Program-made: the position numbers and the translations under genes
The notes under the pieces: generated by a model
Seen by the model: the letters and a program-made list of their open reading frames with translations, nothing else
Database searches by the model: none
Told to the model about the DNA's origin: nothing
In this document: positions 36,633 through 62,381 of the stretch, in pieces
Position numbering within the stretch: position 1 is the stretch's first letter
Layout: each line of letters begins with the position of its first letter
Origin: Allohoeflea poritis
GTDB taxonomy: Bacteria > Pseudomonadota > Alphaproteobacteria > Rhizobiales > Rhizobiaceae
Length of the DNA stretch: 64,000 bases
Direction of reading: 5' to 3'
NCBI RefSeq assembly: GCF_027889715.1
Contig: NZ_JAPJZH010000003.1
Span: forward strand, 372,001 to 436,000

Positions 36633-36659
36633 TGTCCGCTCAAGTCAACAATTCGTCCG
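36633..36659 (+). promoter_or_regulatory. AraC-type 27-bp operator, site upstream of maoC-phaC
   Basis: TGTCCG (36633-36638), N4, AGTCA (36643-36647), N6, CGTCCG (36654-36659): the same spacing as the five other sites and two mismatches to the half-site consensus. It lies 121-147 nt before the maoC start, in gene orientation. This places the PHA genes in the same proposed regulon as the alcohol/aldehyde genes. Confidence 0.6.
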
Positions 36660-36779
36660 ATCGCACCCTTGGCAGATGCGGGTCTGCTGAGCGATTCCAA
36701 TTGTCAAGATGAATGGTGGACGGCATGCCAGGACCTGCACCTGGCAATCGCCGCGGGGATACCGGAAGGAGTTTTGACG

Positions 36780-37259
36780 ATGAACGCGCAAGAGAAATAT
36801 CCGGACAGCTACACACTGGAGAATATCGAAGAGCACATCGGGCGAACTTTTGGTCCGGGAAGCCCGATCCCGGTCGGGCAGGATCGCATCAACGAATTTG
36901 CCGAGGTCACGGAAGATCGGCAGTGGATCCACACCGATGTCGCGCGTGCCAATGAGCGCAGCCCCTTCGGAGGAACGATCGCGCATGGTTATCTGACGTT
37001 GTCCTTGCTGGCGGCTGAGCAGATGAAGCTGGGACTGATCCCGAAAGGGTGCAGTGGCGCTATGAACTACGGTTTGGACAAGGTCAGATTTCTTGCTCCG
37101 GTTCCCAGCGGGGCGGACCTGCGGGTCTCTGCGGTATTGACGGGGATAGAGCGAAAAGAAGGCGGACGCGTTCTCATCCGGTCCAAGGTTACCGCACAAG
37201 CGGTGGGTGCCAGCGGACCCGCGCTTATTGCCGACACCCTTGCTCTGGCTTTCCGCTAG
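36780..37259 (+). CDS. MaoC-like dehydratase
   Basis: A 159-residue hot-dog-fold enoyl-CoA hydratase-like protein. The landmarks are VGQDRINEFAEVTEDRQWIHTDVARANERSPFGGTIAHGYLTLSL, with the Asp/His catalytic pair of the R-hydratase motif. The ATG at 36780 has GGAAGGAG 9 nt upstream; a longer frame from 36606 would read through the operator. R-specific hydratases supply (R)-3-hydroxyacyl-CoA from beta-oxidation to PHA synthase, and the phaC-like gene follows 24 nt later. Confidence 0.87.
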   Translation: MNAQEKYPDSYTLENIEEHIGRTFGPGSPIPVGQDRINEFAEVTEDRQWIHTDVARANERSPFGGTIAHGYLTLSLLAAEQMKLGLIPKGCSGAMNYGLDKVRFLAPVPSGADLRVSAVLTGIERKEGGRVLIRSKVTAQAVGASGPALIADTLALAFR

Positions 37260-37283
37260 TTCATCCAGACACGAGTATGCACC

Positions 37284-38915
37284 ATGACCAGGAAACGCGA
37301 AGAAAATGATCGCATCGTCGGATCCGTTGCCAGTTTCTACGCCGCGATGGCCCGGCAGCCGATGGACTTCGTTCGCCACGGTGTCAATTTCGGCAACCAG
37401 ATGTTCGGCATTCTCGGAGGTGCGGATACCGCTGATAAACACGCTGCCGACAAGCGATTCTCGGATCCCGTCTGGTCCAGCAACCATGCGTATCGTGCAC
37501 TGAAGAACAGTTATTTGTCGTGGTGCAAGAGCACGCAGGCATGGATCAACGACCTCGATATGGATGTGCGTGACAAGGAGCGGATCAGACTGCTTGCTGG
37601 AACAATCCTTGATGGATGGTCGCCGACGAACATGCTTGTCGGCAACCCGAGCGCGATGAAGAAAACACTTGAGACCGGGGGTGAAAACATACTGTCCGGG
37701 TTGCGCAATCTTGTTTCCGATCTTGCCAACAACGGCGCCATGCCATCGTCGGTCGACAGGTCGCAATTCCAGGTCGGTGAAAACCTTGGCATCAGCAAAG
37801 GCGATGTTGTCGACCGCGACGAGTTGCGCGAGTTGATCCAGTACAAAGCCCAAACGGACAAGGTCCACGGCACACCGATCCTTATCGTTCCGCCACAGAT
37901 CAACAAATTCTATATTTGGGACCTCTCGCCCGGTCGCAGCCTTGTCGAGTTTCTGATTCAGCAGGGATTTTCCGTGTTCATAGTTTCGTGGCGCAATCCT
38001 GGTCCAAAAGACGCGGAATACGGACTGGATGACTACGTGCAGTCCCTCGATCGTGCGTCCGAGGTCGTTTCAAAGATAAGCAGGGCGAAGAAAATTCACA
38101 TCGCAGGCGCCTGTTCAGGAGGGATCAGCCTGTCCCTGTTGCTGAGCTACTGGGCGGCAAAAGGCATCGACCGTGCCGCCAGTGCGACCTTTCTCGTAAC
38201 CATTCTGGACACCGACGGTGCGTCCGATACGTCGATGGGATTGTTTGCAAATCTTGAAATCCTCACGCTTGCCAAGTCCATCTCACGCAGCAAAGGCATC
38301 GTACGAGGCCGCGATCTGGCCCGAGTCTTTGCACTGCTGAGACCCAACGATCTGATCTGGGCCTACTGGGTCAACAACTACCTGATGGGGGAAACGCCAC
38401 CGGCATTCGACATCCTGTACTGGAACGATGACACGACCAACATGACCGCGTCGCTGCATGGAGACTACATTGCGCTTCTGGAGGAAAACGGGATCAAAAC
38501 CCGTCGCGCTTCCGTCCTGAATGAACAGGTCGATCTGTCGCGGGTGACCTGCGATAGCTTTGTTCTCGGAGGCTCGACGGATCACATCACGCCTTGGAAA
38601 GGCTGCTACCGAACCGTCGAGATGCTGGGCGGCAAATCAGAATTTGTCCTTAGCTCCAGCGGTCATATTCAGGCGATCGTAAATCCGCCATCCAATCAGA
38701 AAGCAAAGTTTCGCACGATGGATGAATTGCCGAAAAGTACCGAGGCCTTTCTGGAGAACAGCTCAGAGATCGAAGGGACCTGGTGGCTACATTGGGCCGA
38801 GTGGCTGAAGCAAAGGTCCCAAAAGGAAAAGGCTGCGCCCGGATCCTCCGGGAACGCCGAATTCATGCCTTTGTGCGCAGCACCTGGCAAATATGTGCTC
38901 GAAGGAGAGAGCTGA
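37284..38915 (+). CDS. phaC: PHA synthase (PhaC-like)
   Basis: A 543-residue poly(3-hydroxyalkanoate) synthase of the alpha/beta-hydrolase superfamily. The lipase-like box is GACSGG with Cys277 as nucleophile. VPPQINKFYIWDLSPGRSLVEFLIQQGFSVFIVSWRNP is the strongly conserved core. The catalytic Asp and His are in GGSTDHITPWKGCY and SSSGHIQAIVNPP. Length fits class I/II. It polymerises hydroxyacyl-CoA on the granule surface. A maoC gene lies upstream and a depolymerase-like gene starts at the next base after its stop, so the cluster fits medium-chain PHA turnover fed by beta-oxidation. Confidence 0.88.
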   Translation: MTRKREENDRIVGSVASFYAAMARQPMDFVRHGVNFGNQMFGILGGADTADKHAADKRFSDPVWSSNHAYRALKNSYLSWCKSTQAWINDLDMDVRDKERIRLLAGTILDGWSPTNMLVGNPSAMKKTLETGGENILSGLRNLVSDLANNGAMPSSVDRSQFQVGENLGISKGDVVDRDELRELIQYKAQTDKVHGTPILIVPPQINKFYIWDLSPGRSLVEFLIQQGFSVFIVSWRNPGPKDAEYGLDDYVQSLDRASEVVSKISRAKKIHIAGACSGGISLSLLLSYWAAKGIDRAASATFLVTILDTDGASDTSMGLFANLEILTLAKSISRSKGIVRGRDLARVFALLRPNDLIWAYWVNNYLMGETPPAFDILYWNDDTTNMTASLHGDYIALLEENGIKTRRASVLNEQVDLSRVTCDSFVLGGSTDHITPWKGCYRTVEMLGGKSEFVLSSSGHIQAIVNPPSNQKAKFRTMDELPKSTEAFLENSSEIEGTWWLHWAEWLKQRSQKEKAAPGSSGNAEFMPLCAAPGKYVLEGES

Positions 38916-39746
38916 ATGCAGGGCGGCTCCGAAGCGGCAAGCACACAATTTGTTGTCGGCACGATCAAGATTTGGGGGCGACCGGTCAGATATGCAAGAC
39001 ACGATCCGCCGCACGCGGAAACAACACTTCTTTTGTTCAACGGCATCGGCGCCAATCTGGAAAGCGCTGAGCGCTTTATCACAAGTTTTCAGAACGTTCG
39101 CGTAATTACCTTTGATGTCCCGGGAGTCGGCGGGACTCCAACGCCAACGCTACCCTACCGGATGTCGCACATTGCTGACATGGCCGCAGCCCTTTTGGAC
39201 CGGCTTGACATTCACAAGGTGCACGTGTTTGGCGTCTCATGGGGTGGCGGAGCAGCGCAACAGTTTGCATGGATGTATCAGGAACGTTGCCTGTCGCTGA
39301 CACTGGCGGCAACCACGTCCGGCGCCATCATGATACCCGGATCGCCGAAAGCCTTGATAAGAATGGTGACGCCGAGACGGTATTCTGATCCAAACTTCAT
39401 GTTCAAGAACGCAGCGCATCTTTATGGCGGCACCGTTGCCGTTCAACAGGAACTCATGCGCGAGTTTGTCGAGGCGCTCGATCATGGAACACCGGTCGGA
39501 TACATTTACCAGTTGATCGCCATGGTCGGCTGGACGAGTTGGCACTACTTGTCCCGCCTGGATCTCCCCGCTCTTGTGCTGATGGGCGAGGAAGATCCAA
39601 TCGTTCCGGTGTCAAATGGCCGGGTACTGACCAGCCGCCTGAAGCGGGCCACCCTGGAAACAATGCCATGCGGTCATCTATTCATAATAACAATGCCGGC
39701 GGAAACGGCCCGACGCGTTGAACGTTTCGTCCTTGAGGGGCTTTGA
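38916..39746 (+). CDS. phaZ: Intracellular PHA depolymerase-like alpha/beta hydrolase (PhaZ-like)
   Basis: A 276-residue alpha/beta hydrolase. The nucleophile elbow is GVSWGG, the Asp region is LVLMGEEDPIVPV and the His region is PCGHLFIITMP. The start (VGTIKIWGRPVRYARH, then LLLFNGIGANLESAERFI) matches the PhaZ that lies beside phaC in pseudomonad-type mcl-PHA loci. The ATG directly follows the phaC stop. It would release 3-hydroxy acids from granules. Annotation as an unspecified alpha/beta hydrolase is the fallback. Confidence 0.8.
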   Translation: MQGGSEAASTQFVVGTIKIWGRPVRYARHDPPHAETTLLLFNGIGANLESAERFITSFQNVRVITFDVPGVGGTPTPTLPYRMSHIADMAAALLDRLDIHKVHVFGVSWGGGAAQQFAWMYQERCLSLTLAATTSGAIMIPGSPKALIRMVTPRRYSDPNFMFKNAAHLYGGTVAVQQELMREFVEALDHGTPVGYIYQLIAMVGWTSWHYLSRLDLPALVLMGEEDPIVPVSNGRVLTSRLKRATLETMPCGHLFIITMPAETARRVERFVLEGL

Positions 39747-41757: not shown

Positions 41758-43017
41758 TCAGTCCAGCAAAAATTGCGTTAGCTCAGGGATGAAGGTGACC
41801 ATCAACAGCATCGCAATCATGAGCACAATGAAGGGAATGACCGAGAGACTGACCTCGGCAAACCGTTTCTTGAATGCACCGGAGGCGACGAGAAGGTTCA
41901 ATCCGATTGGTGGTGTCAGCAGTCCGATTTCCAGATTGATGATCATTATAATCCCAAGCTGAATCGGGCTCACACCGAAATGTGTGGCCGCAGCCAGCAT
42001 GACGGGCCCCAAAAGCAGAACTGCGGAAATAACGTCGATCAGGCATCCGATCAGCAGCAGTGCGACATTCAGGGCCAGGAGGAATGTCCACTTGTTGTCG
42101 AAGGTGGCCTGAATCCAATCGGCAAAGTCGCCGGGCACGCCTTCGATGGCAAGGACCGATTTCAGCGAGAGCGCAACAGCGACAATCGGAAACAACGTTC
42201 CCAGCATCACTGCGGTTGAAACGGCTTCGTCGAAGAAATCCTTCGCCGACAATTCCCGATAGACCAGCAGTTCGACCAGAATGGCATATCCGACCGCAAC
42301 CGCAGCTGCCTCGGTGGGCGAAAAATACCCCGAATAAATACCCCCGAGCAGGATGACCGGGGTCATGAGCGCAAAGATTCCCTTGCGGATGGCGGTCAGC
42401 AGACGCACCAGAGAAAACACACCCCGTTCATTCCCGAGGTTCGTGACCATGCTGTAGGCCGCCAGAATTGCCGTCAGCAGCAGACCGGGAATGATACCCG
42501 CCAGGAAAAGGTCGGCGACGCTGGTTTCGGTGACGATCCCGTAGATGATAAGCGGGATGGATGGCGGGATGAGTATACCAAGCGTGCCTGCCGAGGTCAC
42601 GGCGCCGATCGAGAACTTTTCGCTGTATCCGGACTCCTTGAGAGCCGGATACATGACCACGCCCACCGCCAGCAAAGTTGCTGCCGAAGACCCGGAGACT
42701 GCCGCAAACAGCGCGCAGGACAGGACCGTCGCCATGCCGAGGCCGCCCGGCATCCAGTCGGTTGCTGCGCGCACCATGGCGATCAGGTCACGCGCGATCG
42801 AGCCCCGCGCCATCAGTTTGCCGGCGATTATGTACATCGGAATGGCCAGCAGAACGTGGTTGTCCATGGACGACCAGAGATCCTCCAGTACATAGAGGAC
42901 GGTGCCGCCACTCCAGACCACCTGAATATAGGCTGTCACGACCAGAAGTATCAGGACCACGTTTTGACGCAGTACCAGCATCAGAAGAACGGTACCAAGC
43001 AGCAGGGTCGCTTCCAT
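41758..43017 (-). CDS. TRAP transporter 2, large permease (DctM type)
   Basis: A 419-residue membrane protein with the DctM landmarks FAAVSGSSAATLLAVG, GTLGILIPPSIPLIIYGIV, YFSPTEAAAVAVGYA and LTPPIGLNLLVASGAF. It begins 3 nt after the small permease stop. A decayed relative of its 3' end lies at 36415-36540. Upstream regulation by the 27-bp element ties it to the alcohol/aldehyde regulon. Confidence 0.92.
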   Translation of the reverse strand: MEATLLLGTVLLMLVLRQNVVLILLVVTAYIQVVWSGGTVLYVLEDLWSSMDNHVLLAIPMYIIAGKLMARGSIARDLIAMVRAATDWMPGGLGMATVLSCALFAAVSGSSAATLLAVGVVMYPALKESGYSEKFSIGAVTSAGTLGILIPPSIPLIIYGIVTETSVADLFLAGIIPGLLLTAILAAYSMVTNLGNERGVFSLVRLLTAIRKGIFALMTPVILLGGIYSGYFSPTEAAAVAVGYAILVELLVYRELSAKDFFDEAVSTAVMLGTLFPIVAVALSLKSVLAIEGVPGDFADWIQATFDNKWTFLLALNVALLLIGCLIDVISAVLLLGPVMLAAATHFGVSPIQLGIIMIINLEIGLLTPPIGLNLLVASGAFKKRFAEVSLSVIPFIVLMIAMLLMVTFIPELTQFLLD

Positions 43018-43020
43018 GGC

Positions 43021-43494
43021 CTATGTCCTTCCCAGTTGCTCTTTTGCGGCCGGGTTCAAGGCAAAGACGAAATGTTTGATTGCCGAGGAAGCCATCGCGT
43101 AAGGAACAACGATCTGAACTGGCCACAGCGTGAGATTGATCACCGGCACACGGTCCGAGAAATTCCGTGACTCAACGACAAACTCCACTGCGAAATAGGC
43201 GAAGCCCGCAAACAGGATTGCAGAGATCAGGTCGCCCAACCTGTCCACCCAGGAAAAAGCAAGGATCCCGTCGGCGAATTCCGGCCGAAAGTGGGCCTGG
43301 CGCCCTGTCGCAAGTGTCAGCCCGATCATGCCTGCCAATATGCTGAGCAAAATCGCGCTTTGCTGTGCGCCCCATAGCGACCGCGACAGGAATTCTCTTG
43401 AAAACACGTCTGCTAACAGCAGAAGAGTTGTAGCGGCATAGGCTAATGCCGCCACAATCGCCTCCGTTTGCATAAGTAAACGAAGAATCTTCAT
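43021..43494 (-). CDS. TRAP transporter 2, small permease (DctQ type)
   Basis: A 157-residue four-helix membrane protein. It has TEAIVAALAYAATTLLLLADVFSREFL, the DctQ helix with the conserved DVFSR turn, and three further hydrophobic segments. It lies between the binding protein (5 nt) and the large permease (3 nt), so the three form one operon. Confidence 0.87.
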   Translation of the reverse strand: MKILRLLMQTEAIVAALAYAATTLLLLADVFSREFLSRSLWGAQQSAILLSILAGMIGLTLATGRQAHFRPEFADGILAFSWVDRLGDLISAILFAGFAYFAVEFVVESRNFSDRVPVINLTLWPVQIVVPYAMASSAIKHFVFALNPAAKEQLGRT

Positions 43495-43499: not shown

Positions 43500-44501
43500 T
43501 CAGCTTCCGCAGTCAGCCTTGGCTGTCTCGATCTTTTCAAGAAGCGACACGGCCTTTGGACCAAGTTGTTCGACCAGTTCCTCGCGCAAGCCCTCGGAAG
43601 AGGCCTTCCATGCGGCGATCTGTTCGTCGTTCAGTCGCACCACCGGCAGCCCGGCGCCCTCTACCTTTTTCAGAAGCGCTTCCTGCGTGCCAAGGATCGT
43701 GGCTGACATGGCCGGGCCGGTCTCTTCGAAGACCTTCAGCCACTCCTTTTCCTGATCCGACAGTTTTTTGTAACTGCGTTCGGAAATCGCCACCGTGCCA
43801 ATCGGACGCGCATGGTCGCTGACGGTGATGTGCGGCGCGACCTTGTGAGTTCCGATAGCAATGCCGAAAAGCCCCGGCAGGAAGGCAGATTCGACGTTGC
43901 CGGTCTGCAGCGCCGGGATCGTATCCGACGTTCCCATCGGCACGCCGACCGCGCCGAGACGCCTTGCGAAAGCTTCGTCCGAAGTGGTCGCGGCTACGCG
44001 CAGTTTTTTTCCTGACAGCGCATCGGGCGTCAGAGCAGGCGCCTCCTTTGAGAAGGTCACGTAGTGTCCGATTTCCATCCACGTCAGCGGTACCAGGCCG
44101 GCTTCCAACAGGTTGGGACCAAGAATATCCGACATGTGGTTGTAGGCGACGCAAGTGCCTTGTTCGACAGTGTCGAACAAATAGGGCGTTGAGAAAACGT
44201 CGACCTCCTGACCGATCAGAGACAATGGTATGTTGGACACCATGACGATGTCGACACGGCCTTTCATACCCTGTCGCAGGATCGTCTGTTCGTCTCCCAA
44301 CTGCGCGTCACCGATTACTTCGATCTTGAGCTCGCCACCGGACTTCTCCGCGATCTGATCCGCGACGCTCTGTGCCCACTGCCCCCAGGGCGAGTTCATC
44401 GGCGCAACGGTTGCGGCGCGCAAGGTTGTTTCCGCCGATGCCGGCGAACTCAACAGGCCAATAGCTGTCGCGCAGATTGCCGCGATACATTTGATTTTCA
44501 T
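43500..44501 (-). CDS. TRAP transporter 2, solute-binding protein (DctP type)
   Basis: A 333-residue periplasmic binding protein with signal MKIKCIAAICATAIGLLSSPASAE. LRAATVAPMNSPWGQWAQSVADQIAEKSGGELKIEVIGDAQLG is the DctP N-terminus. GKKLRVAATTSDEAFARRLGAVGVPMGTSDTIPALQTGNVES holds the usual Arg that contacts a carboxylate ligand. The ATG at 44501 has AGGAGG 7 nt upstream; the longer frame to 44627 has no signal peptide at its start. The Arg and the neighbouring acyl-CoA synthetase suggest an organic acid ligand. Confidence 0.9.
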   Translation of the reverse strand: MKIKCIAAICATAIGLLSSPASAETTLRAATVAPMNSPWGQWAQSVADQIAEKSGGELKIEVIGDAQLGDEQTILRQGMKGRVDIVMVSNIPLSLIGQEVDVFSTPYLFDTVEQGTCVAYNHMSDILGPNLLEAGLVPLTWMEIGHYVTFSKEAPALTPDALSGKKLRVAATTSDEAFARRLGAVGVPMGTSDTIPALQTGNVESAFLPGLFGIAIGTHKVAPHITVSDHARPIGTVAISERSYKKLSDQEKEWLKVFEETGPAMSATILGTQEALLKKVEGAGLPVVRLNDEQIAAWKASSEGLREELVEQLGPKAVSLLEKIETAKADCGS

Positions 44502-44709
44502 TGGTTCCTCCTGAACTGACTGCATTTTTTGCGTCCGATTGGGGCTTTCTCTCTCCGGTGAGCCGACACTGCGGGCCTTTCCTGCAGACCCGTTCGCAGG
44601 ATCAGTCGGCCTGACGACCTGCGACATTGTTCGCGTGTTTCACCGATACCTCCCGACCTCCGCAGTAAACAGCTTTGCGGCATTGTCGGTGCTTTCGCTA
44701 TGGTGCCAG

Positions 44710-44736
44710 CGGACACATAGTTGACACATTCGGCCA
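44710..44736 (-). promoter_or_regulatory. AraC-type 27-bp operator, site upstream of TRAP 2
   Basis: In gene orientation it reads TGGCCG-N4-TGTCA-N6-TGTCCG (on + CGGACA at 44710-44715, TGACA at 44722-44726, CGGCCA at 44731-44736). All three half-sites match the consensus. It lies 209-235 nt before the dctP start. Confidence 0.72.
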
Positions 44737-44885: not shown

Positions 44886-46808
44886 TTAGTTCAGGTCCAC
44901 GTTGAAGGCAAAATTACCAAGGGCCCGATTGAGGCCCTCGCGGCCGGATTTGACACAGACCTTTGCAACGATGCCGCGGCTGGCATCCTGCACCACCTCA
45001 AGTGTTTCGATCTCAGCTGCGGCACTTTGGGCCTCTACGCGGATTGCACGCTCGATTTCCATCATATTCAAGGTGACTTTGTGGATCTTGCCCACGGCAG
45101 TAAGCGGAAGGGCATCGAGGCAGATGAAGTCCTTCGGCACCGCCGCTCTTTCTGGAACGTGAATCTGCGCAAATTCAGCCAGGTCGTCTTTATCGACATC
45201 CATGCCGGACGCTTTTTGGTAGTACATCACCGGCACTTCGCCAACCTTGGCGTCCGGACGGGCGACCACCGCAGCCATAGCCACCGCGTCATGCTTGTGC
45301 ATGGCCTCCTCGACAATTTTCGGATCAATATTGTGTCCGCCCCGGATGATCAGTTCTTTCTTGCGACCGGTCATCCAGAAATAGCCTTCGGCGTCCTGCC
45401 GGGCCAGGTCGCCGGTATTGAACCAGCGCTTTCCATCGTGCTCCAGCCAGATACCCCTGTTTTGCTCCTCGATCAGATAGCCATCGAAGACATTGGGACC
45501 GGTGATGAAGATCACGCCCGCCTCGTCGACTTCGGCCCAGCGTTCGAATTCGTCCCTGTCGTTCAAGATGCCGATACGCATGTCCTGATACGGAAAGCGC
45601 AGGCCGATCGAGCCGATCCGTGGCGCGTCTGTCTCGGCCGGATTCATCGACGACGCCAACACGCCTTCGGTCATGCCGTAGGCTTCGACAATCGACACGC
45701 CGGTTTCGGAAACAAAGCTGTTGAAGAGTTCCACAGGCATTGGCGCGGCACCGCACGCGGCAAACCGCATCGAGCTCAGATCCCTTCCCTTGTGCGGCAC
45801 CTGCAACAAAGCCCCGTAGATCGTCGGAACCCCCGAGAATGAAGTGATTCCATAATGTTCGACCATCTCCCAGAAACCAGCGATGACCCCTTCCCCGCGA
45901 TAGCCTGAGGGCGTGGCAAGCACAACATGGCCGCCATGCATCCAGGGCAGCAGACCGGTGACCAGCATGGCATTCGTGTGGAACAACGGGAGTCCGCAAA
46001 GCGCGGTTGTACCGGGTCCCACATTATCCTGTCCGACAAAGAGGCTGGGACACCAGGAATTGTAAACCTCGCCAAAATGTGTCCGGCTCACGATCTTGGG
46101 CAGGCCCGTGGTTCCGCCCGTACACAGCATGGTCGAAATGTCGTCGGGACCGGGCAGTGCGAAGTTTATGTCCTTGGCGTTTTCGGCGGCGATCTCGTCG
46201 AGCAGCCGGGTGATCGTGATGTCCCGGCCCTCGATCCGCGCGGCGACCGGCGGCAGGTCTGGACCGTTCGGCCAGACACCGTCACCCATGACGTAGGACG
46301 CGAAATTGCAAAGCAGAATGCGTTCGAGCCCAGGAACCTTCGCCGCTGCCTGACTTGCCTTTTCCCAAATGTCGGACCCTGGGCTCTGCTCAAGTGTAAT
46401 CAGGATTTTTACGCCGGCCGCATTCAACAAGTCCGCCATCTGGCCGGCCTCAATCAACGGATTGATGGCAAGAATTCCACCTGCTGCGCTGCCACCCCAG
46501 ATCGAAAAATGGGTTTCGGGCATGTTGGGCAAGATATAGGCCGCGACTTCGTTGCGCTGCAGACCCAGGCGTCTTAGCGCGTTGGCTGTCTGGGTGATGC
46601 GCCCCATAAGCTGAGCATGCGTCAACGTATAGGGTGCGCGCATTGCTGAAGCACTGAGAAAAAAACTGAGCGCCGGCGCATCCGGATTGATCGCCGCGCC
46701 CTGCCTGAGCGCTTCATATGTCGTCTCAGGCAACTGCCGCTCGGACAATGGTATTTGCTCGAACGCCTGAATATCGTCGATGCAGCGAAGAACTGTTTGC
46801 TGACTCAT
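44886..46808 (-). CDS. Acyl-CoA synthetase (AMP-binding enzyme)
   Basis: A 640-residue adenylate-forming ligase. The P-loop is MLCTGGTTGLPKIV. The AMP site is seen as EAYGMTEG and WFNTGDLARQDAEGYFWMTGRKKELIIRGGHNIDPK. The catalytic lysine near the C-terminus is in LPLTAVGKIHK. The size and the extra 40-residue tail after that Lys fit acyl-CoA synthetases acting on medium-chain or bulky acids. It is 75 nt downstream of the GMC dehydrogenase gene on the same strand and so should share its operator. It would activate the acid made by the aldehyde dehydrogenases. Confidence 0.88.
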   Translation of the reverse strand: MSQQTVLRCIDDIQAFEQIPLSERQLPETTYEALRQGAAINPDAPALSFFLSASAMRAPYTLTHAQLMGRITQTANALRRLGLQRNEVAAYILPNMPETHFSIWGGSAAGGILAINPLIEAGQMADLLNAAGVKILITLEQSPGSDIWEKASQAAAKVPGLERILLCNFASYVMGDGVWPNGPDLPPVAARIEGRDITITRLLDEIAAENAKDINFALPGPDDISTMLCTGGTTGLPKIVSRTHFGEVYNSWCPSLFVGQDNVGPGTTALCGLPLFHTNAMLVTGLLPWMHGGHVVLATPSGYRGEGVIAGFWEMVEHYGITSFSGVPTIYGALLQVPHKGRDLSSMRFAACGAAPMPVELFNSFVSETGVSIVEAYGMTEGVLASSMNPAETDAPRIGSIGLRFPYQDMRIGILNDRDEFERWAEVDEAGVIFITGPNVFDGYLIEEQNRGIWLEHDGKRWFNTGDLARQDAEGYFWMTGRKKELIIRGGHNIDPKIVEEAMHKHDAVAMAAVVARPDAKVGEVPVMYYQKASGMDVDKDDLAEFAQIHVPERAAVPKDFICLDALPLTAVGKIHKVTLNMMEIERAIRVEAQSAAAEIETLEVVQDASRGIVAKVCVKSGREGLNRALGNFAFNVDLN

Positions 46809-51505: not shown

Positions 51506-51532
51506 TGGCCGGAAATGTCAAAGACATGTCCG
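51506..51532 (+). promoter_or_regulatory. AraC-type 27-bp operator, araC1 / tautomerase operon divergence
   Basis: TGGCCG (51506-51511), N4, TGTCA (51516-51520), N6, TGTCCG (51527-51532). It is oriented toward the + strand operon, 56-82 nt before its first start, and 20-46 nt before the araC1 start, so it could also autoregulate araC1. Confidence 0.75.
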
Positions 51533-51587
51533 TTGCCATCATCGGCTTTTGGCAGGCGATGACAGAGAGTGTTCGCAGGAGGACCCC

Positions 51588-52037: not shown

Positions 52038-52049
52038 GAGCGTTCGACA

Positions 52050-52466: not shown

Positions 52467-52500
52467 TCCCGGTTTCAATCAAACACTCGGAGAAACGCAA

Positions 52501-53967
52501 ATGTCCGCACCACAACTGACCGCAGTCACACCGGAAATGCCGGATCTTGAGGCAATGCTTCTGGCTCAGAAGAAGGCGTATATGGCTGATCCGATGCCCG
52601 ATCGGGCGACACGGATTCGCAGGCTCGACAAGCTGCACAATGCTCTTGTCGACAACAAGGCGCGGATCATCGCTGCGGTGAGCAAGGATTTCTCCAACCG
52701 CTCCGCGGCGGAAACGGAGCTGGCGGAGATCATGCCGTTGCTGGACGGCATTTCCTATTACCGCAAACGCCTGAAACGTCTGATGAAGCCGCAACGCCGC
52801 CATGTGTCGCTGACTTTGATGCCAGCGCGTGTCGAGGTGCAATATCAGCCTGTCGGCGTCGTCGGCATCGTAGTACCCTGGAACTTTCCCATCTTTCTGG
52901 CCCTGTCACCGTTGATCGGTGCACTGGCAGCCGGCAACCGCGCAATGCTCAAATCGTCGGAATTCGCGCCCGCCACGGGAGATTTGCTGAAGCAGATCAT
53001 CGCGGAAAACTATGCCGAAGACGAGGTGACGGTCGTTACCGGCGGCGTTGAAGTTGCCACCGAGTTCACCAAGCTGCCGTTCGATCACCTGGTGTTCACC
53101 GGTTCGACCCAGGTCGGCAGAATTGTGATGCGTGCCGCGGCGGAAAATCTCACACCGGTGACACTGGAACTCGGAGGCAAATCTCCGGTCATCATCCACA
53201 AGGATTTTCCCATTGAAGAAGCCGCCGGCCGGATCGCATTCGGCAAGGGCATCAATGCCGGTCAGGTCTGTGTATCGCCGGACTACATCCTGTGCCCGCG
53301 CGACAAGGTGAATGCCTTCTGCAACGCCTTTTCGGAATCGATGGGCAAAGCCTACCCGAGTCTGCAGAACAATGGCGACTATACCGCGATCATCACCGAT
53401 CGGCAGAAAGCCCGGTTGGAAGGCTACCTCAAGGATGCCGAGGAAAAAGGCGCCGAACTGATCACCATCAATCCGCAGGCCGAGTCGTTCGGCGACTCGC
53501 GAAAGATGCCGATGACGCTGGTCATCGGCGCCACCGACGAGATGCTGGTCCTGCGCGAAGAGATTTTCGGCCCGATCTTACCCGTGGTCCCCTATGACAC
53601 GATCGACGAGGCCATCGCCTATGTGAATGACCGCCCGCGGCCGTTGGCGTTCTACTATTTCGATTGGAACAAAAGTCGTGCCGACGATGTGCTGGCCCGG
53701 ACCCATTCGGGGGGAGCGTGCGTGAACGACACGATGAGCCATGTGCTTGCCGACGATATTCCTTTCGGCGGCATCGGCCCGTCGGGCATGGGCCATTATC
53801 ACGGCGCGGAAGGGTTCCGCAATTTCTCCAAGGCCAAAGGGGTGGTCCGCAAGGGCCGGATCAATGCGACGGCTTTCATCGCGCCGCCCTGGGACAACTT
53901 CATGTTCAACAGCCTGAAAAAACTACAGGCAATGCGCTTCCGTCGCCGGAAGATTCAGGAGTATTGA
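52501..53967 (+). CDS. Coniferyl-aldehyde-dehydrogenase-like ALDH (CalB type)
   Basis: A 488-residue NAD(P)-dependent aldehyde dehydrogenase of the class 3/CalB branch. The nucleophilic Cys is in GINAGQVCVSPDYIL and the general-base Glu in VTLELGGKSPVI. The GSTQVGRIVMRAAAENLTPV cofactor loop and C-terminal SKAKGVVRKGRINATAFIAPPW are present. The ATG at 52501 has GGAGA 7 nt upstream; the frame extends further left only inside the tautomerase gene. It oxidises an aldehyde, aromatic or aliphatic, to the acid, next to the tautomerases and OYE. Confidence 0.88.
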   Translation: MSAPQLTAVTPEMPDLEAMLLAQKKAYMADPMPDRATRIRRLDKLHNALVDNKARIIAAVSKDFSNRSAAETELAEIMPLLDGISYYRKRLKRLMKPQRRHVSLTLMPARVEVQYQPVGVVGIVVPWNFPIFLALSPLIGALAAGNRAMLKSSEFAPATGDLLKQIIAENYAEDEVTVVTGGVEVATEFTKLPFDHLVFTGSTQVGRIVMRAAAENLTPVTLELGGKSPVIIHKDFPIEEAAGRIAFGKGINAGQVCVSPDYILCPRDKVNAFCNAFSESMGKAYPSLQNNGDYTAIITDRQKARLEGYLKDAEEKGAELITINPQAESFGDSRKMPMTLVIGATDEMLVLREEIFGPILPVVPYDTIDEAIAYVNDRPRPLAFYYFDWNKSRADDVLARTHSGGACVNDTMSHVLADDIPFGGIGPSGMGHYHGAEGFRNFSKAKGVVRKGRINATAFIAPPWDNFMFNSLKKLQAMRFRRRKIQEY

Positions 53968-53970: not shown

Positions 53971-55260
53971 ATGCTTGAGACACAGCACGCACAGGCCCGT
54001 CAATTTCACGCCGATCAGGCAAGCAAGGATACCGCAAATCTTGCAGACCCCCTGACGCTGAAGTCGGGCACTGTACTGCGCAACCGGATTTGCAAGGCAT
54101 CGATGAATGAAGCCCTGGCAACGCCGGACGGCAAGGTCACCGACGCCCACACATCGCTCTATGACGTCTGGGCCGACAGCGGTGCCAGTCTTCTGATCAC
54201 CGGCAACATGATGGTGGACGGCAAGCACATGAACGAACCTCTGGTCGTTGATGCGTTGCTGGATACCAACATGGATCAATTGCGCAAATGGGCTGCGACC
54301 GGGCGGCGCACCAACACGCACATCTGGCCGCAATTGAATCATCCGGGCAAGCAGTCGCCCAAAATGGTCAATGACGCACCCGTCGCACCCTCCGTCGTGC
54401 CGATCCCAAACGAGATGTTCGCCCCCCCGCGCGAACTGACCGATAGCGAGATCGAAGAGATCATCGACCGTTTCGCAGAGGCGGCCGGCCGCCTCCAGGA
54501 GGCTGGGTTCACCGGCGTACAGCTGCACGGGGCGCATGGCTACCTCATCGGCCAGTTCCTGTCGCCGCATCACAACCGGCGGGAAGACAAATGGGGCGGA
54601 AGTTTCGACAACCGTTTCCGATTCGTTGAAGAGGTCTACAAGCGCGTGCGCGAGCGTACGGGCGAAGGCTTCAATGTCGCAATAAAGATCAATTCATCCG
54701 ATTTCCAGAAAGGCGGGTTCACCGAGGCGGATTCGATTGAGGTCGCCAGGCGGCTGGACCGGCTGGGAATCGACCTGATCGAAATCTCGGGCGGTAGCTG
54801 GGAAAATCCCGTCAACCGCAAGGGAAAGCAGGAAGTCAAAAAGGAAAGCACCATCAAACGTGAGGCGTATTTCCTGGAATATGCGGAAAAGGTCAAAAGC
54901 CAGATTTCGACCCCACTTGTTGTCACGGGCGGCTTCCGGTCCTCAGCCGGCATGCGCCAGGCTCTTGCCTCAGGTGCGATTGACATGGCCGGTGTTGCAC
55001 GCCCCTTTGCCGTCGATCCCAAATTCGGTACGCACGTACTGGAAAATCCGAACCATGTCTCGCCGGTGGCCCCCATCAAATCGGGGCTGAAGAAAATCGA
55101 CGCAATGGCGATCATGGAAATCAGCTGGTACACGCTTCAAATCGAACGCATATCACAAGGCAAGAAGATTCAGAAGAAGGCGGACGGTGTGTGGCCGGCC
55201 CTTCGTGTGATATATCGCTTCTGGAAAAACGGAAAGGCCGTCAAGAGAGTCAGAGCGTAG
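53971..55260 (+). CDS. NADH:flavin oxidoreductase, old yellow enzyme family
   Basis: A 429-residue FMN-binding TIM-barrel ene-reductase. GAHGYLIGQFLSPHHNRREDKWGGSFDNRFRF is the OYE signature. WPQLNHPGKQSP and TPLVVTGGFRS are further FMN contacts. There is no C-terminal iron-sulfur/FAD extension of the 2,4-dienoyl-CoA reductase type. It starts 3 nt after the ALDH stop, so coupled. It would reduce an activated C=C bond in an unsaturated aldehyde, ketone or acid. Confidence 0.88.
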   Translation: MLETQHAQARQFHADQASKDTANLADPLTLKSGTVLRNRICKASMNEALATPDGKVTDAHTSLYDVWADSGASLLITGNMMVDGKHMNEPLVVDALLDTNMDQLRKWAATGRRTNTHIWPQLNHPGKQSPKMVNDAPVAPSVVPIPNEMFAPPRELTDSEIEEIIDRFAEAAGRLQEAGFTGVQLHGAHGYLIGQFLSPHHNRREDKWGGSFDNRFRFVEEVYKRVRERTGEGFNVAIKINSSDFQKGGFTEADSIEVARRLDRLGIDLIEISGGSWENPVNRKGKQEVKKESTIKREAYFLEYAEKVKSQISTPLVVTGGFRSSAGMRQALASGAIDMAGVARPFAVDPKFGTHVLENPNHVSPVAPIKSGLKKIDAMAIMEISWYTLQIERISQGKKIQKKADGVWPALRVIYRFWKNGKAVKRVRA

Positions 55261-57418: not shown

Positions 57419-58459
57419 TTACGCGGCCCGGACCGCATTTTTCTTTCGAACCTCGCCGGGCGTCTCGCCGTAGTGTTTGGTGAATGCGCGGGCAAAACTG
57501 GCTGGTTCGGCATAGCCGACACGCCATGAAACTGTATCGACGTTCAGTCCAGCGGAGGCCAGCAATTCATAGGCAATTGTCATGCGGGCATCGATGTAAA
57601 GCTGTCGAAAACTGGTTCCTTCGTCGGTCAACCGTCGTCGCAAAGTTCGTTCGGTCACGGCCAATCTTGCTGCGATCTCTTCGATTTGCTGTTCCGATCC
57701 GATGTTGTCGACGATAGCGTCGCGCACTTGTTGCGACCAATGCGGCAAAGCGCCGGTCTGCTCCTCCAGGAGAACCTTGCACTGATCGAGACAGAATTTC
57801 AGAGAGACGGGATCTGAATTCGGAAGTGGCGCGTCCAGTATCTCCGCCGGAAAGGCCAGAGCGTTTACGGGCTGGCCCATCTTGATTGAGGGCGGTTTGA
57901 ATTTGGCCAACTTCTCCGGATAGTCGGGGTCGCCGTCCATTAGCCGGGCTTCGAAGTTGTTGAAATCCGGCTTCTGCAACAAGTCGCGAATAAACTTGAC
58001 CGCAATTACAGTGTGGCGCTCGAGGATATAGCGATGTGTTGAGACCGGGATACCGGTTGTGTCGAACTCCAGCCGAGCCTCGCCATTGTCCTCCACCAAC
58101 GACATCTCGGCGATCAGGAATGACAACTTTGAGAAGTCGATGGCCGTTTCTATCGCGGCCCTCAAAGTGGGGCTTGTCAGGATCGCAAAACCCCAGATGC
58201 CGAAAGCATGAACATGGGTGGCGCGGCCGACCGCAAAGCCCAGACCGACATTTTCAGGCGCAAGGCGAACCAGATTCTCAATCGCCCGGATTTCATCGGT
58301 TGTGCTGTGCAAGGCGCCGGGATTGTCCAGATCAGCAACCGAGACGGAAGTGCCTTCGAGGCATGCTTCCTCGGTGATTCCATACCTGGCCGCCTCATCG
58401 CAAAGGAGGCGCAGGCTGGTAGGCGGGCGGGATTGCGCGTGAACAATCATCGGGAACAT
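57419..58459 (-). CDS. AraC family regulator 2 (paralogue of AraC 1)
   Basis: A 346-residue regulator with the same layout as AraC 1. The sensor has LGFAVGRATHVHAFGIWGFAILTSPTLRAAIETAIDFSKLSFLI. The HTH pair is LAVTERTLRRRLTDEGTSFRQLYIDARMTIAYELL and VSWRVGYAEPASFARAFTKHYGETPGEVRKK. Recognition segments are nearly identical to AraC 1. It lies 55 nt downstream of the tautomerase gene on the same strand, so it is probably the last gene of the Fe-ADH operon; a degenerate operator (58470-58496) sits in the gap. No Shine-Dalgarno is evident before the ATG at 58459 or the one at 58450. Confidence 0.9.
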   Translation of the reverse strand: MFPMIVHAQSRPPTSLRLLCDEAARYGITEEACLEGTSVSVADLDNPGALHSTTDEIRAIENLVRLAPENVGLGFAVGRATHVHAFGIWGFAILTSPTLRAAIETAIDFSKLSFLIAEMSLVEDNGEARLEFDTTGIPVSTHRYILERHTVIAVKFIRDLLQKPDFNNFEARLMDGDPDYPEKLAKFKPPSIKMGQPVNALAFPAEILDAPLPNSDPVSLKFCLDQCKVLLEEQTGALPHWSQQVRDAIVDNIGSEQQIEEIAARLAVTERTLRRRLTDEGTSFRQLYIDARMTIAYELLASAGLNVDTVSWRVGYAEPASFARAFTKHYGETPGEVRKKNAVRAA

Positions 58460-58514: not shown

Positions 58515-58883
58515 TTATGTGTCGTCTTCCGCATGTTCCGGCTGGACCACACCGCCCTCCATGACCCAACCCGCCGGCACGTCCGTTGTGTCGGCGACAA
58601 TCGCACTCAACGGCACGCCGGCATGGGTGAAGATGGACATTTTCATGCGCATCACGAGTGTGCTCTTTTGGTCAGCGGTACTACCCGAGTGGATACTGCC
58701 AAAAAGGAATACGCTTCTGCCATTGATCGGCACTTGCGGAGCGTCCTCAAAGAAAAAAACATGAACGAAGGTCCGGGGGGTGCCGGTGATGTCACAATGA
58801 ATATCGGTGATGTCAGACGCGATAACCGGCTTTGCGTCGTCGGGAATTGCACCGGGAACAGCATTGCACATATAGAGAGGCAT
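58515..58883 (-). CDS. cis-CaaD-like tautomerase with Pro-1 (second copy)
   Basis: A 122-residue tautomerase-superfamily protein, mature N-terminus PLYMCNAVPG. His28 in ITDIHCDITGTPRTFVHVFF is at the cis-CaaD position, and VMEGGVVQPEH keeps the Glu. The segment GSIHSGSTADQKS lacks the two active-site arginines of cis-CaaD, so substrate binding should differ from that enzyme and from the copy at 52050. It starts 5 nt after the partner gene. It is a paralogue of 52050-52466, and the two-gene order (partner, then Pro-1 protein) is conserved. Confidence 0.75.
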   Translation of the reverse strand: MPLYMCNAVPGAIPDDAKPVIASDITDIHCDITGTPRTFVHVFFFEDAPQVPINGRSVFLFGSIHSGSTADQKSTLVMRMKMSIFTHAGVPLSAIVADTTDVPAGWVMEGGVVQPEHAEDDT

Positions 58884-58888
58884 GATTG

Positions 58889-59206
58889 CTATACCTTTGG
58901 ATTACGGATCGATGTGACAACTTCGTTGGCAGACAAGCCAGTCCTGGTCATGCAGATGTCGCAGAGCTCTCCAAGAAACGCGACGCGCTCATCACGGGAA
59001 AGCGCACGATTTGCATGGAGCGAGGCAATCACGCTCTTTGAGGGTGCAGCTGCTGTAAATCCGTTGCCACTTGGCACAACGATCCAGTCGATATCCGCAG
59101 GCGCCGCAAAGGCGCGCTGCGAAAAGTCGTTGATCTGAGCCTTCAGGCGAAGTTCGTTTTCAGTTGAAATCTGCCCTTCTTGGACAAGGCACATTACGGG
59201 TATCAC
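58889..59206 (-). CDS. Tautomerase-superfamily-like partner protein (second copy)
   Basis: A 105-residue protein starting MIPVMCLVQEGQISTENE (GTG start at 59206, AAAGGA upstream). The PVMCLVQEG strand looks like a tautomerase first strand, but with an extra residue before the Pro, so Pro-1 would not be N-terminal. The QEGQIS start is shared with 51588-52037, which is 44 residues longer overall. I infer a subunit for the adjacent Pro-1 protein. It lies 36 nt after the Fe-ADH gene. Confidence 0.62.
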   Translation of the reverse strand: MIPVMCLVQEGQISTENELRLKAQINDFSQRAFAAPADIDWIVVPSGNGFTAAAPSKSVIASLHANRALSRDERVAFLGELCDICMTRTGLSANEVVTSIRNPKV

Positions 59207-59242
59207 AGGACTGTTCCTTTGTTGTTGAACCCAGGTTGTTTG

Positions 59243-60454
59243 TCAGGCGAAGTCCACCGATCTGCTTCCATTGGAAACGGAGTTTAGAATCTTCGTCACA
59301 TCGCTCTTGCGCATGACTTTCGGCACGGCATAGGAAGACCGCGCTTCAGCAAGGGCATCTTTGGCAATGGAGGCGAAATCCTTCTGTTGCAGGTCATCGA
59401 GATTTACGGGGATGCCTACTGTGCTTGCCAGCGCATCGACGCGTTCGATGAACTGATCGGCCTGGATCAATGCATAGGGTGCCGAGCTGTTTCCTTGCAG
59501 CATCCGCTCCAGCTCGGCGAACCGCTCCGCGCTGACCTGTCTATTGAACCGCAAGACGCGCGGCAACAGGATGGCGTTGGCCAGACCATGGGGTGTGTTG
59601 TAGTGCGCGCTGATCTGGTGCGAGATTGCATGGACATAGCCGAGGCCTGCGCGTGTGAAGGCATTGCCCGCAAGGAAGGAGCCGAGGGCGACCATTTCGC
59701 GGGCATGCTCATCATTGCCATTGGAGTAGGCGACGGGCAGGAACTCCACGATCAAGCGAATGGCGGTCGCGGCGTCGCGATCCGTCGCCGGTGTGCGCGC
59801 GCGGGATATGAACGCTTCAATCGCGTGCGTGAGTGCGTCCATGCCGGTGCCGGCCGTCATCGGTCCCGGCAGCGAGACGAGCAAATCCGTGTCAAACGCG
59901 GCCGCAACCGGCAGATATTTCGGATCCACGAAGAACTTCTTCTTGTGGGTCTGCGTGTCCGAGATCACTGCCGCGGTCGTCACTTCAGAGCCGGTGCCGG
60001 ACGTGGTCGCGACCACATAGAACGGCAGCAGGGGCTGATCGACTTTCAGGATGCCAGCCAGTTTGTCCAGAGATTTTTTGCTGGTGCTGGCCGCTGCCAT
60101 GACCTTGGCCGCGTCGATGGCGGAGCCGCCGCCAACGGCGAACACGCTGTCGCACTTTCCTGCACGAATAGCAGCAACGCCTTCTTCTACAACCGCAAAA
60201 GTGGGGTTGGGGATGATCCCGTCATAGACGGTCACATCGCAGCCTTCATTTGCCAGGAATTCCAGCAGACCATCAAGCATTCCGTTTTTGAGAAGGAAGC
60301 TGTCTGTAACAAGAAGCGGGCGTCTGGAACCACTGCGCACCATAAGGTCAGCGAGCTTGATCATGGCTCCTTTACCAGAAAAAGTCAGTGGTTTTTCAAG
60401 GGTATAGAGCCGGTTCATTGCGCGAAGGGCGAAGGCCATGGGTAAGCTGATCAT
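59243..60454 (-). CDS. Iron-containing alcohol dehydrogenase
   Basis: A 403-residue group III alcohol dehydrogenase. The cofactor region is VFAVGGGSAIDAAKVMAA, and VATTSGTGSEVT follows. Metal ligands are visible as the Asp of AAFDTDLL, the His of YVHAISHQISAHYNTPHGLANAILLP, and GMDALTHAIEAF. The ATG at 60454 may be used; a later Met (residue 6) is possible. First gene of an operon with the tautomerase pair and araC2, preceded by operator site 60660-60686. It would oxidise a primary alcohol to the aldehyde with NAD, or the reverse. Confidence 0.9.
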   Translation of the reverse strand: MISLPMAFALRAMNRLYTLEKPLTFSGKGAMIKLADLMVRSGSRRPLLVTDSFLLKNGMLDGLLEFLANEGCDVTVYDGIIPNPTFAVVEEGVAAIRAGKCDSVFAVGGGSAIDAAKVMAAASTSKKSLDKLAGILKVDQPLLPFYVVATTSGTGSEVTTAAVISDTQTHKKKFFVDPKYLPVAAAFDTDLLVSLPGPMTAGTGMDALTHAIEAFISRARTPATDRDAATAIRLIVEFLPVAYSNGNDEHAREMVALGSFLAGNAFTRAGLGYVHAISHQISAHYNTPHGLANAILLPRVLRFNRQVSAERFAELERMLQGNSSAPYALIQADQFIERVDALASTVGIPVNLDDLQQKDFASIAKDALAEARSSYAVPKVMRKSDVTKILNSVSNGSRSVDFA

Positions 60455-60868
60455 GAGAGTATCCTCGATTTGTCTGCGCGCTGCCTTATCAGCGCTTTGG
60501 GTTTATACGTGGCACCAGGAACACGGAACCGATGAGAGTCTTTGCGGGATTGGCTGATTGGCTCACACGCCCGCTCGGGAAATCCGGAAGAGATAGACGA
60601 TGTCCGCCTTCTCTTGATCTCAATGTGGTGGTTTCAACCCGGAATCGACATGTTCAATACGGACAAGGTTCTGACAGTTTCGGACAATCGAGCTGGCCAT
60701 TTGTAGGCTACCGGACCTGACTGAGGTGACTGACGAGAGTACCCGTACTTGAAGCCTGACCGGTGCAGGTGTGCCTTCGTGCAATGGACAATGCCCCTTT
60801 TTGTATAGGGCTGAATATGTTTCGCGGCCGCCATAAATGACGACCGCGGTATTCAGTGCGGATTGTTG
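60455..60868. other. Upstream region of the Fe-ADH operon
   Basis: 414 nt between two - strand genes. It contains the 50-bp repeat/operator at 60641-60690. The long distance (about 200 nt) from that site to the ADH start leaves room for a leader. No gene seen; the short frames here are chance. Confidence 0.5.
60641..60690 (-). promoter_or_regulatory. AraC-type operator, Fe-ADH copy, inside a 50-bp repeat
   Basis: The core in gene orientation is TGTCCG-N4-TGTCA-N6-TGTCCG (on + CGGACA at 60660-60665, TGACA at 60672-60676, CGGACA at 60681-60686). The surrounding 50 bp match 43 of 50 positions of 62332-62381, including GAATCGACATGTTCA on the left. All three half-sites are perfect. Confidence 0.78.
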
Positions 60869-62263
60869 TTACCCGAGCTTGCGGATCAGATTCATCTGCC
60901 GATCGGAGTGCCCATAGTATTTTAGGTCCAGCTCGAAATCGAAGTACTTCTCCAGAACCGGTTTCATATGAGAGAAGCACTCGAGGCTGTACTCACCGTG
61001 GTAACGACCCATGCCGCTGTTGCCAACGCCACCGAAAGGAAGATTTGAATTCGTGATCTGCATGACGGCGTCATTGATTGCGCCGCTTCCGAAGGGTATC
61101 TCGGCGAGGAAGCGCTGCTTGGTCTCGCGGTCGTGGGAAAACAGATACCCGGCCAGCGGCTTTTCGATCTTCCGAACGATGTCAAAGGCTTCATCGAGCG
61201 TCTCGAATTCCAGCACTGCGATGACCGGGCCGAAAATCTCTTCCTGCATGATCGGGTCGTCAACGCTTATGTTGTGTACAACCGTCGGACGGATGACGCG
61301 GTCTTCACGGTTGCTCTCGCCACCGTAGTACACCTTGTCGGCATCAATCAGCCCGACAACGCGGTCGAAGTTACGCTCGTTGATGATCCGAGTGAAATTG
61401 CCGCGCTCGACGGAATAGTCGTGCTTCTCAATCTCATAAACCATCCGCTCGAGAACGCGCTCCTTGATGCTCTTGTGAACCAGAACGTAATCGGGTGCGA
61501 GACAGAGCTGGCCGGAGTTGATGAATTTGGCCCAGATGAGCCGCTTCACACTGACGTCAACAGGCGCGTCTTCGGCCAGGATCGCGGGGTTCTTCCCGCC
61601 CAGTTCGAGTGTCACATTGGTCAAATGAGGCGCGGCGGCTTCATTCACGATCTTCCCGACCTGCGGGCTTCCGGTAAAGAAGATCTTGTCCCAGCGCTGA
61701 TTGAGCAGCGCGGTTGTCTCTGGGACAGCGCCCTCGACAACATGCAGATATCCCGGGTCGAAGTTCTCGTTGATGATCTTCGCCATGACCCGGCTCGTTT
61801 CAGCCGGAAGTTCGCTGGGTTTCAGGATGGTGGTGTTTCCTGCCATCATCGAGCCGACCACCGGGGTAAGAGACAGATTGTATGGGAAGTTCCACGCGCC
61901 GATGACAAGTGCCGTTCCAAGCGGTTCTGCGACGATATAACTTTTCCCGGGTTGGTTGAGCAGGTTGGTTGCGACTTTGCGAGGTTTGGCCCAATCCTTG
62001 AGATGGTCGATCGCCAATCCCAACTCCTCGAACAGCGGGAACAGTTCGGTCAATTGCGTGTGGTGCCTGGATTTGCCGAAATCATTGAATATGGCTTCGT
62101 AGAGCTCATCCTCGTGAGCCCGCAGCAAGCGTTCGAACTTTCTGAGCTGTTCCAGCCGGAATTCGACCGGCAACGTGACCTTAGTGCGAAAATACTCGCG
62201 CTGGCGTTGGACGGCGTCGCGAATCTGTTCTTCGATCCTGGTGTTCTGTGTTTGGTTGGACAT
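60869..62263 (-). CDS. Aldehyde dehydrogenase, class 3-like (AlkH/YwdH type)
   Basis: A 464-residue aldehyde dehydrogenase. The nucleophile Cys is in INSGQLCLAPDYVL and the Glu in VTLELGGKNPAI. IPFGSGAINDAVMQITNSNLPFGGVGNSGMGRYHGEYSLECFSHMKPV is the class 3 C-terminal block. It lacks a clear membrane tail. Class 3-type enzymes often take fatty or aromatic aldehydes. Single-gene unit with its own perfect operator 88-114 nt upstream. It would complete alcohol-to-acid oxidation with the GMC and iron dehydrogenases. Confidence 0.9.
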   Translation of the reverse strand: MSNQTQNTRIEEQIRDAVQRQREYFRTKVTLPVEFRLEQLRKFERLLRAHEDELYEAIFNDFGKSRHHTQLTELFPLFEELGLAIDHLKDWAKPRKVATNLLNQPGKSYIVAEPLGTALVIGAWNFPYNLSLTPVVGSMMAGNTTILKPSELPAETSRVMAKIINENFDPGYLHVVEGAVPETTALLNQRWDKIFFTGSPQVGKIVNEAAAPHLTNVTLELGGKNPAILAEDAPVDVSVKRLIWAKFINSGQLCLAPDYVLVHKSIKERVLERMVYEIEKHDYSVERGNFTRIINERNFDRVVGLIDADKVYYGGESNREDRVIRPTVVHNISVDDPIMQEEIFGPVIAVLEFETLDEAFDIVRKIEKPLAGYLFSHDRETKQRFLAEIPFGSGAINDAVMQITNSNLPFGGVGNSGMGRYHGEYSLECFSHMKPVLEKYFDFELDLKYYGHSDRQMNLIRKLG

Positions 62264-62331
62264 AACGGTTCCTCTTTCGGTTGGCGGTAATAAACGTCCT
62301 TGATCGAGGTGCAGCTTGTCCTTTCAGGCTC

Positions 62332-62381
62332 GAAATCGACATGTTCATCCCGGACAGGATTCTGACAGTTTCGGACAAACG
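62332..62381 (-). promoter_or_regulatory. AraC-type operator, ALDH copy, inside a 50-bp repeat
   Basis: The core in gene orientation is TGTCCG-N4-TGTCA-N6-TGTCCG (on + CGGACA at 62351-62356, TGACA at 62363-62367, CGGACA at 62372-62377). It lies 88-114 nt before the ALDH start. The 50-bp match to 60641-60690 suggests the two promoters were duplicated together. Confidence 0.78.

Follow-up and report, generated by a model that had tools for sequence, protein, structure and literature searches.

A 39-bp tandem operator predicted to serve two AraC-family regulators of alcohol and aldehyde genes in Allohoeflea poritis

The locus raises the question of whether a short element repeated before several operons of alcohol and aldehyde metabolism marks a regulon and, if so, which regulator reads it. 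The DNA analysed is a 64,000-bp stretch of Allohoeflea poritis (hereafter the window; NZ_JAPJZH010000003.1, positions 372,001–436,000; genome GCF_027889715.1, 5.58 Mb). In it, a first-pass annotation had described a 27-bp pattern of three half-sites, TGKCCG-N4-TGTCA-N6-TGTCCG, at six promoters and had placed all of them under one AraC-type switch. Our analysis led to a different reading, to which we give a probability of about 0.8: the element would be part of a 39-bp AraC-family operator used by two paralogous regulators, AraC1 and AraC2, each with its own alcohol and aldehyde gene set. The sites, their architecture and their conservation could be read directly from the genomes, as could the way they accompany one or the other AraC in different genomes. 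The system is judged genuine, as two predicted AraC regulons of a kind already known.

Matches to the 27-bp pattern were counted in the window and in the whole genome. With up to three mismatches, the window holds eight matches against 0.43 expected, and none of 100 shuffles gave eight. Four are exact (44710, 51506, 60660 and 62351), one has a single mismatch (48553), one has two (36633) and the remaining two, at 2346 and 50279, have three. Every one of the four exact copies in the genome falls in the window, and the claim of a real recurrent element is borne out by these counts. Genome-wide, 134 matches with up to three mismatches were obtained against 39 with the reversed pattern. The genome was also scanned for numerous equal-scoring matches at coding positions, which would have spoken for chance; five of the six sites withstood this comparison, whereas 36633 proved to be one of 13 genome places with exactly two mismatches. 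A refined core derived from other genomes, TGKCCGRAANTRTCANNNNNYTGTCCG, occurs with up to two mismatches at exactly five places in the genome, all of them in the window. Nine further places carry it with exactly three mismatches, each inside an open frame at least 100 codons long, and the total of 14 compares with one match for the reversed-pattern control.

The three half-sites described at first are an incomplete operator. Sites from other genomes revealed a fourth, and the full operator reads roughly TGKCCG-N5-RTCA-N6-TGKCCG-N5-RNCAT: two 21-bp direct repeats with half-sites in the order A-B-A-B, an order and register that the sites given here share. Two direct repeats, each of two half-sites 10–11 bp apart, are the arrangement expected of an AraC/XylS-type operator bound by two monomers with two helix-turn-helix units each. 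The 14 training sites of the AraC2-type matrix described below were selected by their first 27 bases only, yet RACA recurs at positions 33–36 in 13 of them, which argues for A-B-A-B rather than for three half-sites. In the five strong window sites the fourth half-site reads AACAT twice, then ATCAT, ACCAT and ACGCT, and the second B box is weak in the site at 48541. In a comparison of five promoters, 23 of 39 columns are invariant inside the site against 19 of 161 outside. The spacing is constant, as had been stated, but the letters vary at 48553 (TATCA) and 36633 (AGTCA, CGTCCG). All six named sites lie 5′ of a start codon in the direction of the gene, in agreement with the first-pass annotation, and their 39-bp form ends 43–196 bp before the start. 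The layout resembles that of XylS at Pm, where two direct repeats of a two-box site stand 21 bp apart near the −35 box; the boxes there have other sequences and the ligands are benzoates.

Sites were scored with an AraC2-type matrix (14 sites, all from outside the window) and an AraC1-type matrix (8 sites), with 798,480 positions as background, taken from both strands of 400 kb of this genome outside the window. With the AraC2 matrix the five strong window sites rank first, at 49.0, 48.8, 33.1, 30.9 and 24.6 bits; the background maximum is 15.0 bits and the best score in 60 window shuffles 17.7. With the AraC1 matrix (background maximum 15.2 bits) the AraC1-module sites reach 36.8, 35.9 and 29.3 bits, and the sites at 60648 and 62339 reach 26.5 and 23.6. 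The last two, both on the minus strand, favour the AraC2 matrix by 22–25 bits and are clearly AraC2-like in sequence. The predicted operator at 60648–60686 (27-bp form 60660; 49.0 bits, no mismatch to the 39-bp pattern) precedes the operon of iron-containing alcohol dehydrogenase (FeADH), a small protein, a tautomerase and araC2, and that at 62339–62377 (27-bp form 62351; 48.8 bits) precedes the second aldehyde dehydrogenase (ALDH2) gene and is kept in the L049–L051 promoters. By matrix type, 44698 and 51506 are AraC1-like, with preferences of 12 and 5 bits. The first (44698–44736, minus strand, 27-bp form 44710) is the predicted operator of the transporter genes dctPQM of the TRAP family; it scores 24.6 bits with the AraC2 and 36.8 with the AraC1 matrix, and a site stands at the same place in genomes G1139 (L165:19687) and G1162 (L166:5440). 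The second, an exact 27-bp match (51506–51544, plus strand), lies between the divergent araC1 gene and the operon of tautomerase, aldehyde dehydrogenase (ALDH) and old-yellow-enzyme reductase (OYE). The predicted operator before the GMC dehydrogenase and acyl-CoA synthetase genes (48541–48579, minus strand, 27-bp form 48553) is undecided between the types (33.1 bits AraC2, 29.3 AraC1); it is attributed to the AraC1 module by synteny, since G1139 has a site in the corresponding position (L165:9026). The weakest, a candidate operator at 36633–36671 (plus strand; 11.1 bits AraC2, 21.4 AraC1), precedes maoC-phaC-phaZ.

Both regulator genes are on the minus strand: araC1 at 50449–51486 (345 amino acids) and araC2 at 57419–58459 (346 amino acids). 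The N-terminal ligand domain PF12625 was detected at 88.9 bits in AraC1 and 101.1 in AraC2 (cut-off 27.6), and the C-terminal HTH_18 domain PF12833, with its two helix-turn-helix (HTH) units, at 58.8 and 71.8 (cut-off 33.6). The two proteins match each other at E = 3e-91.

AraC2 homologues (55–83% identity) were found at nine distinct loci, namely six of the 17 loci of the first homologue search and six order genomes, three of these being repeats. A site directly precedes the ALDH gene of the AraC2 cluster at all eight evaluable loci; the ninth, G360, is a 3.2-kb contig that ends before the promoter. L084 lacks an FeADH match, and L052 a tautomerase match. The other 11 of the 17 loci, from Pseudoalteromonas (L055–L065), were dropped because only their HTH part matches AraC2; the 27-bp pattern with up to two mismatches is present in none of them. 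In the set of 397 order genomes, seven have AraC2 (E up to 1e-60), ten have the refined motif (at most one mismatch) and six have both (P = 2.8e-10). Within the same threshold the six order genomes other than that of the window have one AraC2 match each (the genomes of L051, L052 and L054 lie outside this check). Four order genomes have the motif only; three of the matches lie within reading frames and the fourth is that of G389. A search of plasmid DNA gave no match, and a search of plasmid proteins gave only AraC proteins of less than 60% identity.

AraC1 clusters with homologues from G1139 (63% identity), G1162 (55%), G912 (50%) and G1160 (50%), with support of 95/96. G1139 retains the whole block (acyl-CoA synthetase-GMC dehydrogenase, hydroxylase, LysR, AraC1, 149-amino-acid gene-tautomerase-ALDH-OYE, TRAP); its three sites stand at those promoters that carry them in the window. 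Of the four sites in G1162 one, L166:3396, is weak (14.4 bits by the AraC2 matrix), and the G1162 contig gave no match to GMC or OYE. In G912 a single site keeps the spacing, with changed A boxes (TGGCGT, TGGCGA). The site ends 43–44 bp before the start codon of the 149-amino-acid gene in four genomes and 46–47 bp before the GMC start in two, and the AraC1 start codon is 1–19 bp from the operator in four genomes. Each of G1139, G1162, G912 and G1160 gave a single AraC1 match at E up to 1e-55; since AraC2 matches AraC1 at 3e-91, an AraC2 orthologue is not expected in these four. The two modules adjoin in the window but occur apart in other genomes.

The first-pass annotation had pointed to near-identical recognition helices in the two proteins. 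The first helix, TERTLRRRL, is indeed identical in both, but the same letters occur in CdpR and are not special to the pair. In G1162 and G912 the Arg after TL is replaced by Ala or Thr, alongside loss of CG from the A boxes. With Arg in the helix, 38 of 42 A boxes contain CG, against 3 of 10 with Ala or Thr, the sites being related and not independent (the two pha sites and L138 were excluded). The closest solved structure to AraC2 is 5CHH, which is CdpR of Pseudomonas aeruginosa (PMC4847859). In PMC8151288, the consensus motifs of VqsM, GGATSNNNTYGGCCA, and CdpR, RGWYNNNWNCGGCCA, are single 15-bp units; their reverse complements, made by hand (TGGCCRANNNSATCC and TGGCCGNWNNNRWCY), are close to one repeat of the window operator, with mismatches at letters 11 and 15 for VqsM and at letter 15 for CdpR. 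The window operator has two such units in tandem. The CdpR footprint CTGCGCCTGGATGAT, as given in PMC4847859, is not obviously like it. The target genes of CdpR, VqsM and GliR, all AraC-family proteins of P. aeruginosa, differ from those of the window. QhpR (NF049968) is the best NCBIfam match of both regulators, but at 140.3 and 124.7 bits it falls below the equivalog cut-off of 250, so neither is the same regulator; for the GliR equivalog NF050186 the scores are 88.9 and 75.6 against 570. The predicted assignment of the element to AraC proteins, already made in the first-pass annotation, is well supported by AraC2 co-occurrence in the 397 genomes, AraC1 synteny and likeness to the VqsM and CdpR motifs.

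Several results weigh against a pair of regulons read in this way. The P value given above is optimistic, since G059, G071, G096, G216 and G424, whose loci served to refine the pattern, are the five shared genomes besides that of the window. In G389 the ALDH-FeADH promoter carries the site, yet the 20 kb examined of its 25.8-kb contig gave no AraC match; in G1160, which has an AraC1 homologue, the 20 kb examined show no module and no site. The 27-bp pattern with up to one mismatch matches in 14 of 61 relatives, and its 17 loci other than those of the own genome and G059 fall inside open frames at least 100 codons long, so chance matches do occur. The matrices do not separate every site, as the AraC2 matrix gives the higher score to both 48541 and L166:1042, and the sites of the AraC1 matrix come from three genomes. 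Training sites were found by the 27-bp pattern or by a matrix derived from it, and they include near-duplicates (L049/L050, L086/L138), so that independent evidence comes only from the fourth half-site and from where the sites stand relative to genes. Matches inside open reading frames were set aside as chance: those in G115, G291 and G299 and on the own contig C17, the 17 relative loci and the remaining places in the own genome with three mismatches. One such coding-frame match, L041, adjoins a distant DctM match (26%).

Other explanations of the sites were weighed on the same evidence. The single switch of the first-pass annotation, in which all six sites would be read without distinction by the two AraC proteins or by just one, would fit the identical TERTLRRRL helix, the scores of all five strong sites above background with either matrix and the ambiguity of 48541. 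It is nevertheless unlikely: the other genomes compared gave one match each (six AraC2 genomes at 1e-60, four of AraC1 type at 1e-55), each gene set occurring with its own AraC, and four sites of the window show the matrix preferences given above. One switch is thus unsupported, although cross-reading in this genome may occur. Another regulator could bind the element, for example the LysR protein encoded at 49481, a gene that adjoins araC1 and is syntenic in G1139. This is very improbable, for no match to this LysR exists in the site-keeping loci of G1162 and G912 nor in the AraC2 loci (the LysR of L053 is unrelated), and 21-bp direct repeats differ from the usual LysR palindrome. The repeats might finally be copies of one duplicated promoter or mobile repeat with no regulatory role, and the promoters at 60648 and 62339 are in fact alike beyond the site; but the remaining sites share little beyond the half-site letters, and the same letters are kept in distant genomes while the flanks diverge, which makes this idea scarcely credible.

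The link to polyhydroxyalkanoate (PHA) storage depends on the site at 36633, and here chance is a more serious contender, though still the less probable one. In that case the PHA genes would lie outside the regulon. In its favour are the two mismatches, shared with 12 other genome places, and the score with the AraC2 matrix, which is reached by 2 of the 798,480 background positions, while window shuffles go up to 17.7 bits with that matrix. With the four matrices that contain AraC1 sites, however, 36633 obtains 17.6–23.0 bits (20.2–23.0 with AraC1 matrices, 17.6 with the pooled one), and no background position reaches it. PhaC is present in all 11 genomes searched (G389 and ten that have a homologue of AraC1 or AraC2), but an orthologue of the window protein was found only in G1139 (70% identity), against 33–38% in the other ten; homologues in genus, family and order relatives, at 32–37%, are too distant to test the site. 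In G1139 the operon acyl-CoA ligase-maoC-phaC-phaZ-DUF445 is on a different contig from the AraC1 block. No site was found in L168, which covers 1.5 kb on each side of phaC, because the operon begins with the acyl-CoA ligase gene further upstream. Within 20 kb, either matrix places its top match 98 bp ahead of the operon's first gene and in the right direction. It scores 13.8–18.1 bits, near the top of the background; with AraC1 matrices it is weak, at 13.8–15.6 bits (0–4 background positions reach this). A different AraC gene near this operon (L183:18599–19525, 27% identity to AraC1) could regulate it instead. A first verdict of background for 36633, based on the AraC2 matrix, was replaced on the strength of the AraC1 matrices and the G1139 operon. 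The link of maoC-phaC-phaZ to the AraC regulon is plausible and somewhat favoured by these comparisons; the connection of PHA metabolism with alcohol oxidation proposed earlier is to that extent upheld, and it rests on the weakest site.

For two regulators with separate gene sets, binding, activation, ligand and feedback are proposed as follows. Each 21-bp repeat would bind one AraC monomer through its two HTH units, and both proteins most likely act as activators that depend on a ligand and sit immediately upstream of the promoter, where a dimer would activate transcription once the ligand is bound. The ligand may be an alcohol or aldehyde substrate of these enzymes, or a compound made from it. 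AraC1 would control dctPQM, the GMC dehydrogenase-acyl-CoA synthetase genes and tautomerase-ALDH-OYE, and probably maoC-phaC-phaZ. AraC2 would control ALDH2 and its own operon and, as this operon is headed by its own site, would raise its own level. AraC1 is divergent, and because its start codon is 1–19 bp from the operator, binding could limit its expression. A more elaborate circuit is doubtful: the paralogues would share an operator code through their identical first helix, with the helix Arg reading the A-box CG, and each would also act on the other's adjacent alcohol module, the feedback differing between them (AraC2 inside the operon it activates, AraC1 reading away from the operator), coupling alcohol oxidation to polyester storage.

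The genes of the AraC1 module are as follows. On the minus strand are the TRAP binding protein DctP (43500–44501, start moved to 44501 by ribosome site and homologues), the membrane subunits DctM and DctQ (41758–43494), the GMC dehydrogenase (46884–48494, PRK02106 choline dehydrogenase subfamily) and the acyl-CoA synthetase (44886–46808, PRK07529 subfamily). The tautomerase operon, on the plus strand, in fact starts with a gene absent from the earlier target list, coding for a protein of 149 amino acids without a Pfam family above cut-off (51588–52037). It is followed by tautomerase-like protein 1 (52050–52466, below the Pfam cut-off), ALDH1 (52366–53967, start not refined) and the old-yellow-enzyme family reductase (53971–55260). 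The candidate PHA target, also on the plus strand, comprises maoC (36780–37259), phaC (37284–38915) and a phaZ-like hydrolase gene (38916–39746), with syntenic copies of 70–73% identity in G1139. The AraC2 module, on the minus strand, includes FeADH (59243–60454), a protein of 105 amino acids (58889–59206, conserved in L049), tautomerase 2 (58515–58883, PF14832/PF01361) and ALDH2 (60869–62263).

Some observations were made beside these genes. The pairs of small protein and tautomerase at 51588–52466 and 58515–59206, one per AraC module, resemble diverged copies, and their small proteins begin alike (VQEGQIS and IQEGQIS). The FeADH (60450–60760) and ALDH2 (62260–62460) promoters are alike beyond the operator, as if one had been copied from the other. 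After the last gene, a transposase-like frame was seen by eye at 63340–63600. In L053, a Hyphomicrobiales metagenome-assembled genome, an AraC2-type site precedes an HlyD-AcrB operon (RND efflux) within 4596–9766; a second site stands back to back with it and points towards an ion-channel-like gene and araC2, and further sites occur before an epimerase-like gene and farther along the contig.

Among the papers listed by searches of the literature, none described this regulon. By gene content, not by sequence, it recalls the Sphingopyxis operon for polyethylene glycol degradation, in which the AraC protein PegR adjoins a GMC dehydrogenase, an ALDH and an acyl-CoA synthetase; this is a lead only. 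With the present analysis, two uncharacterised PF12625 (CdpR-like) AraC regulators gain a precise predicted operator and a target list, and two modules that are adjacent here and apart in other genomes are now separated. The Arg, Ala and Thr variants of the recognition helix, set against the A-box letters, form a small natural series for DNA recognition by AraC proteins. For A. poritis, the candidate link would join alcohol or aldehyde catabolism to PHA storage.

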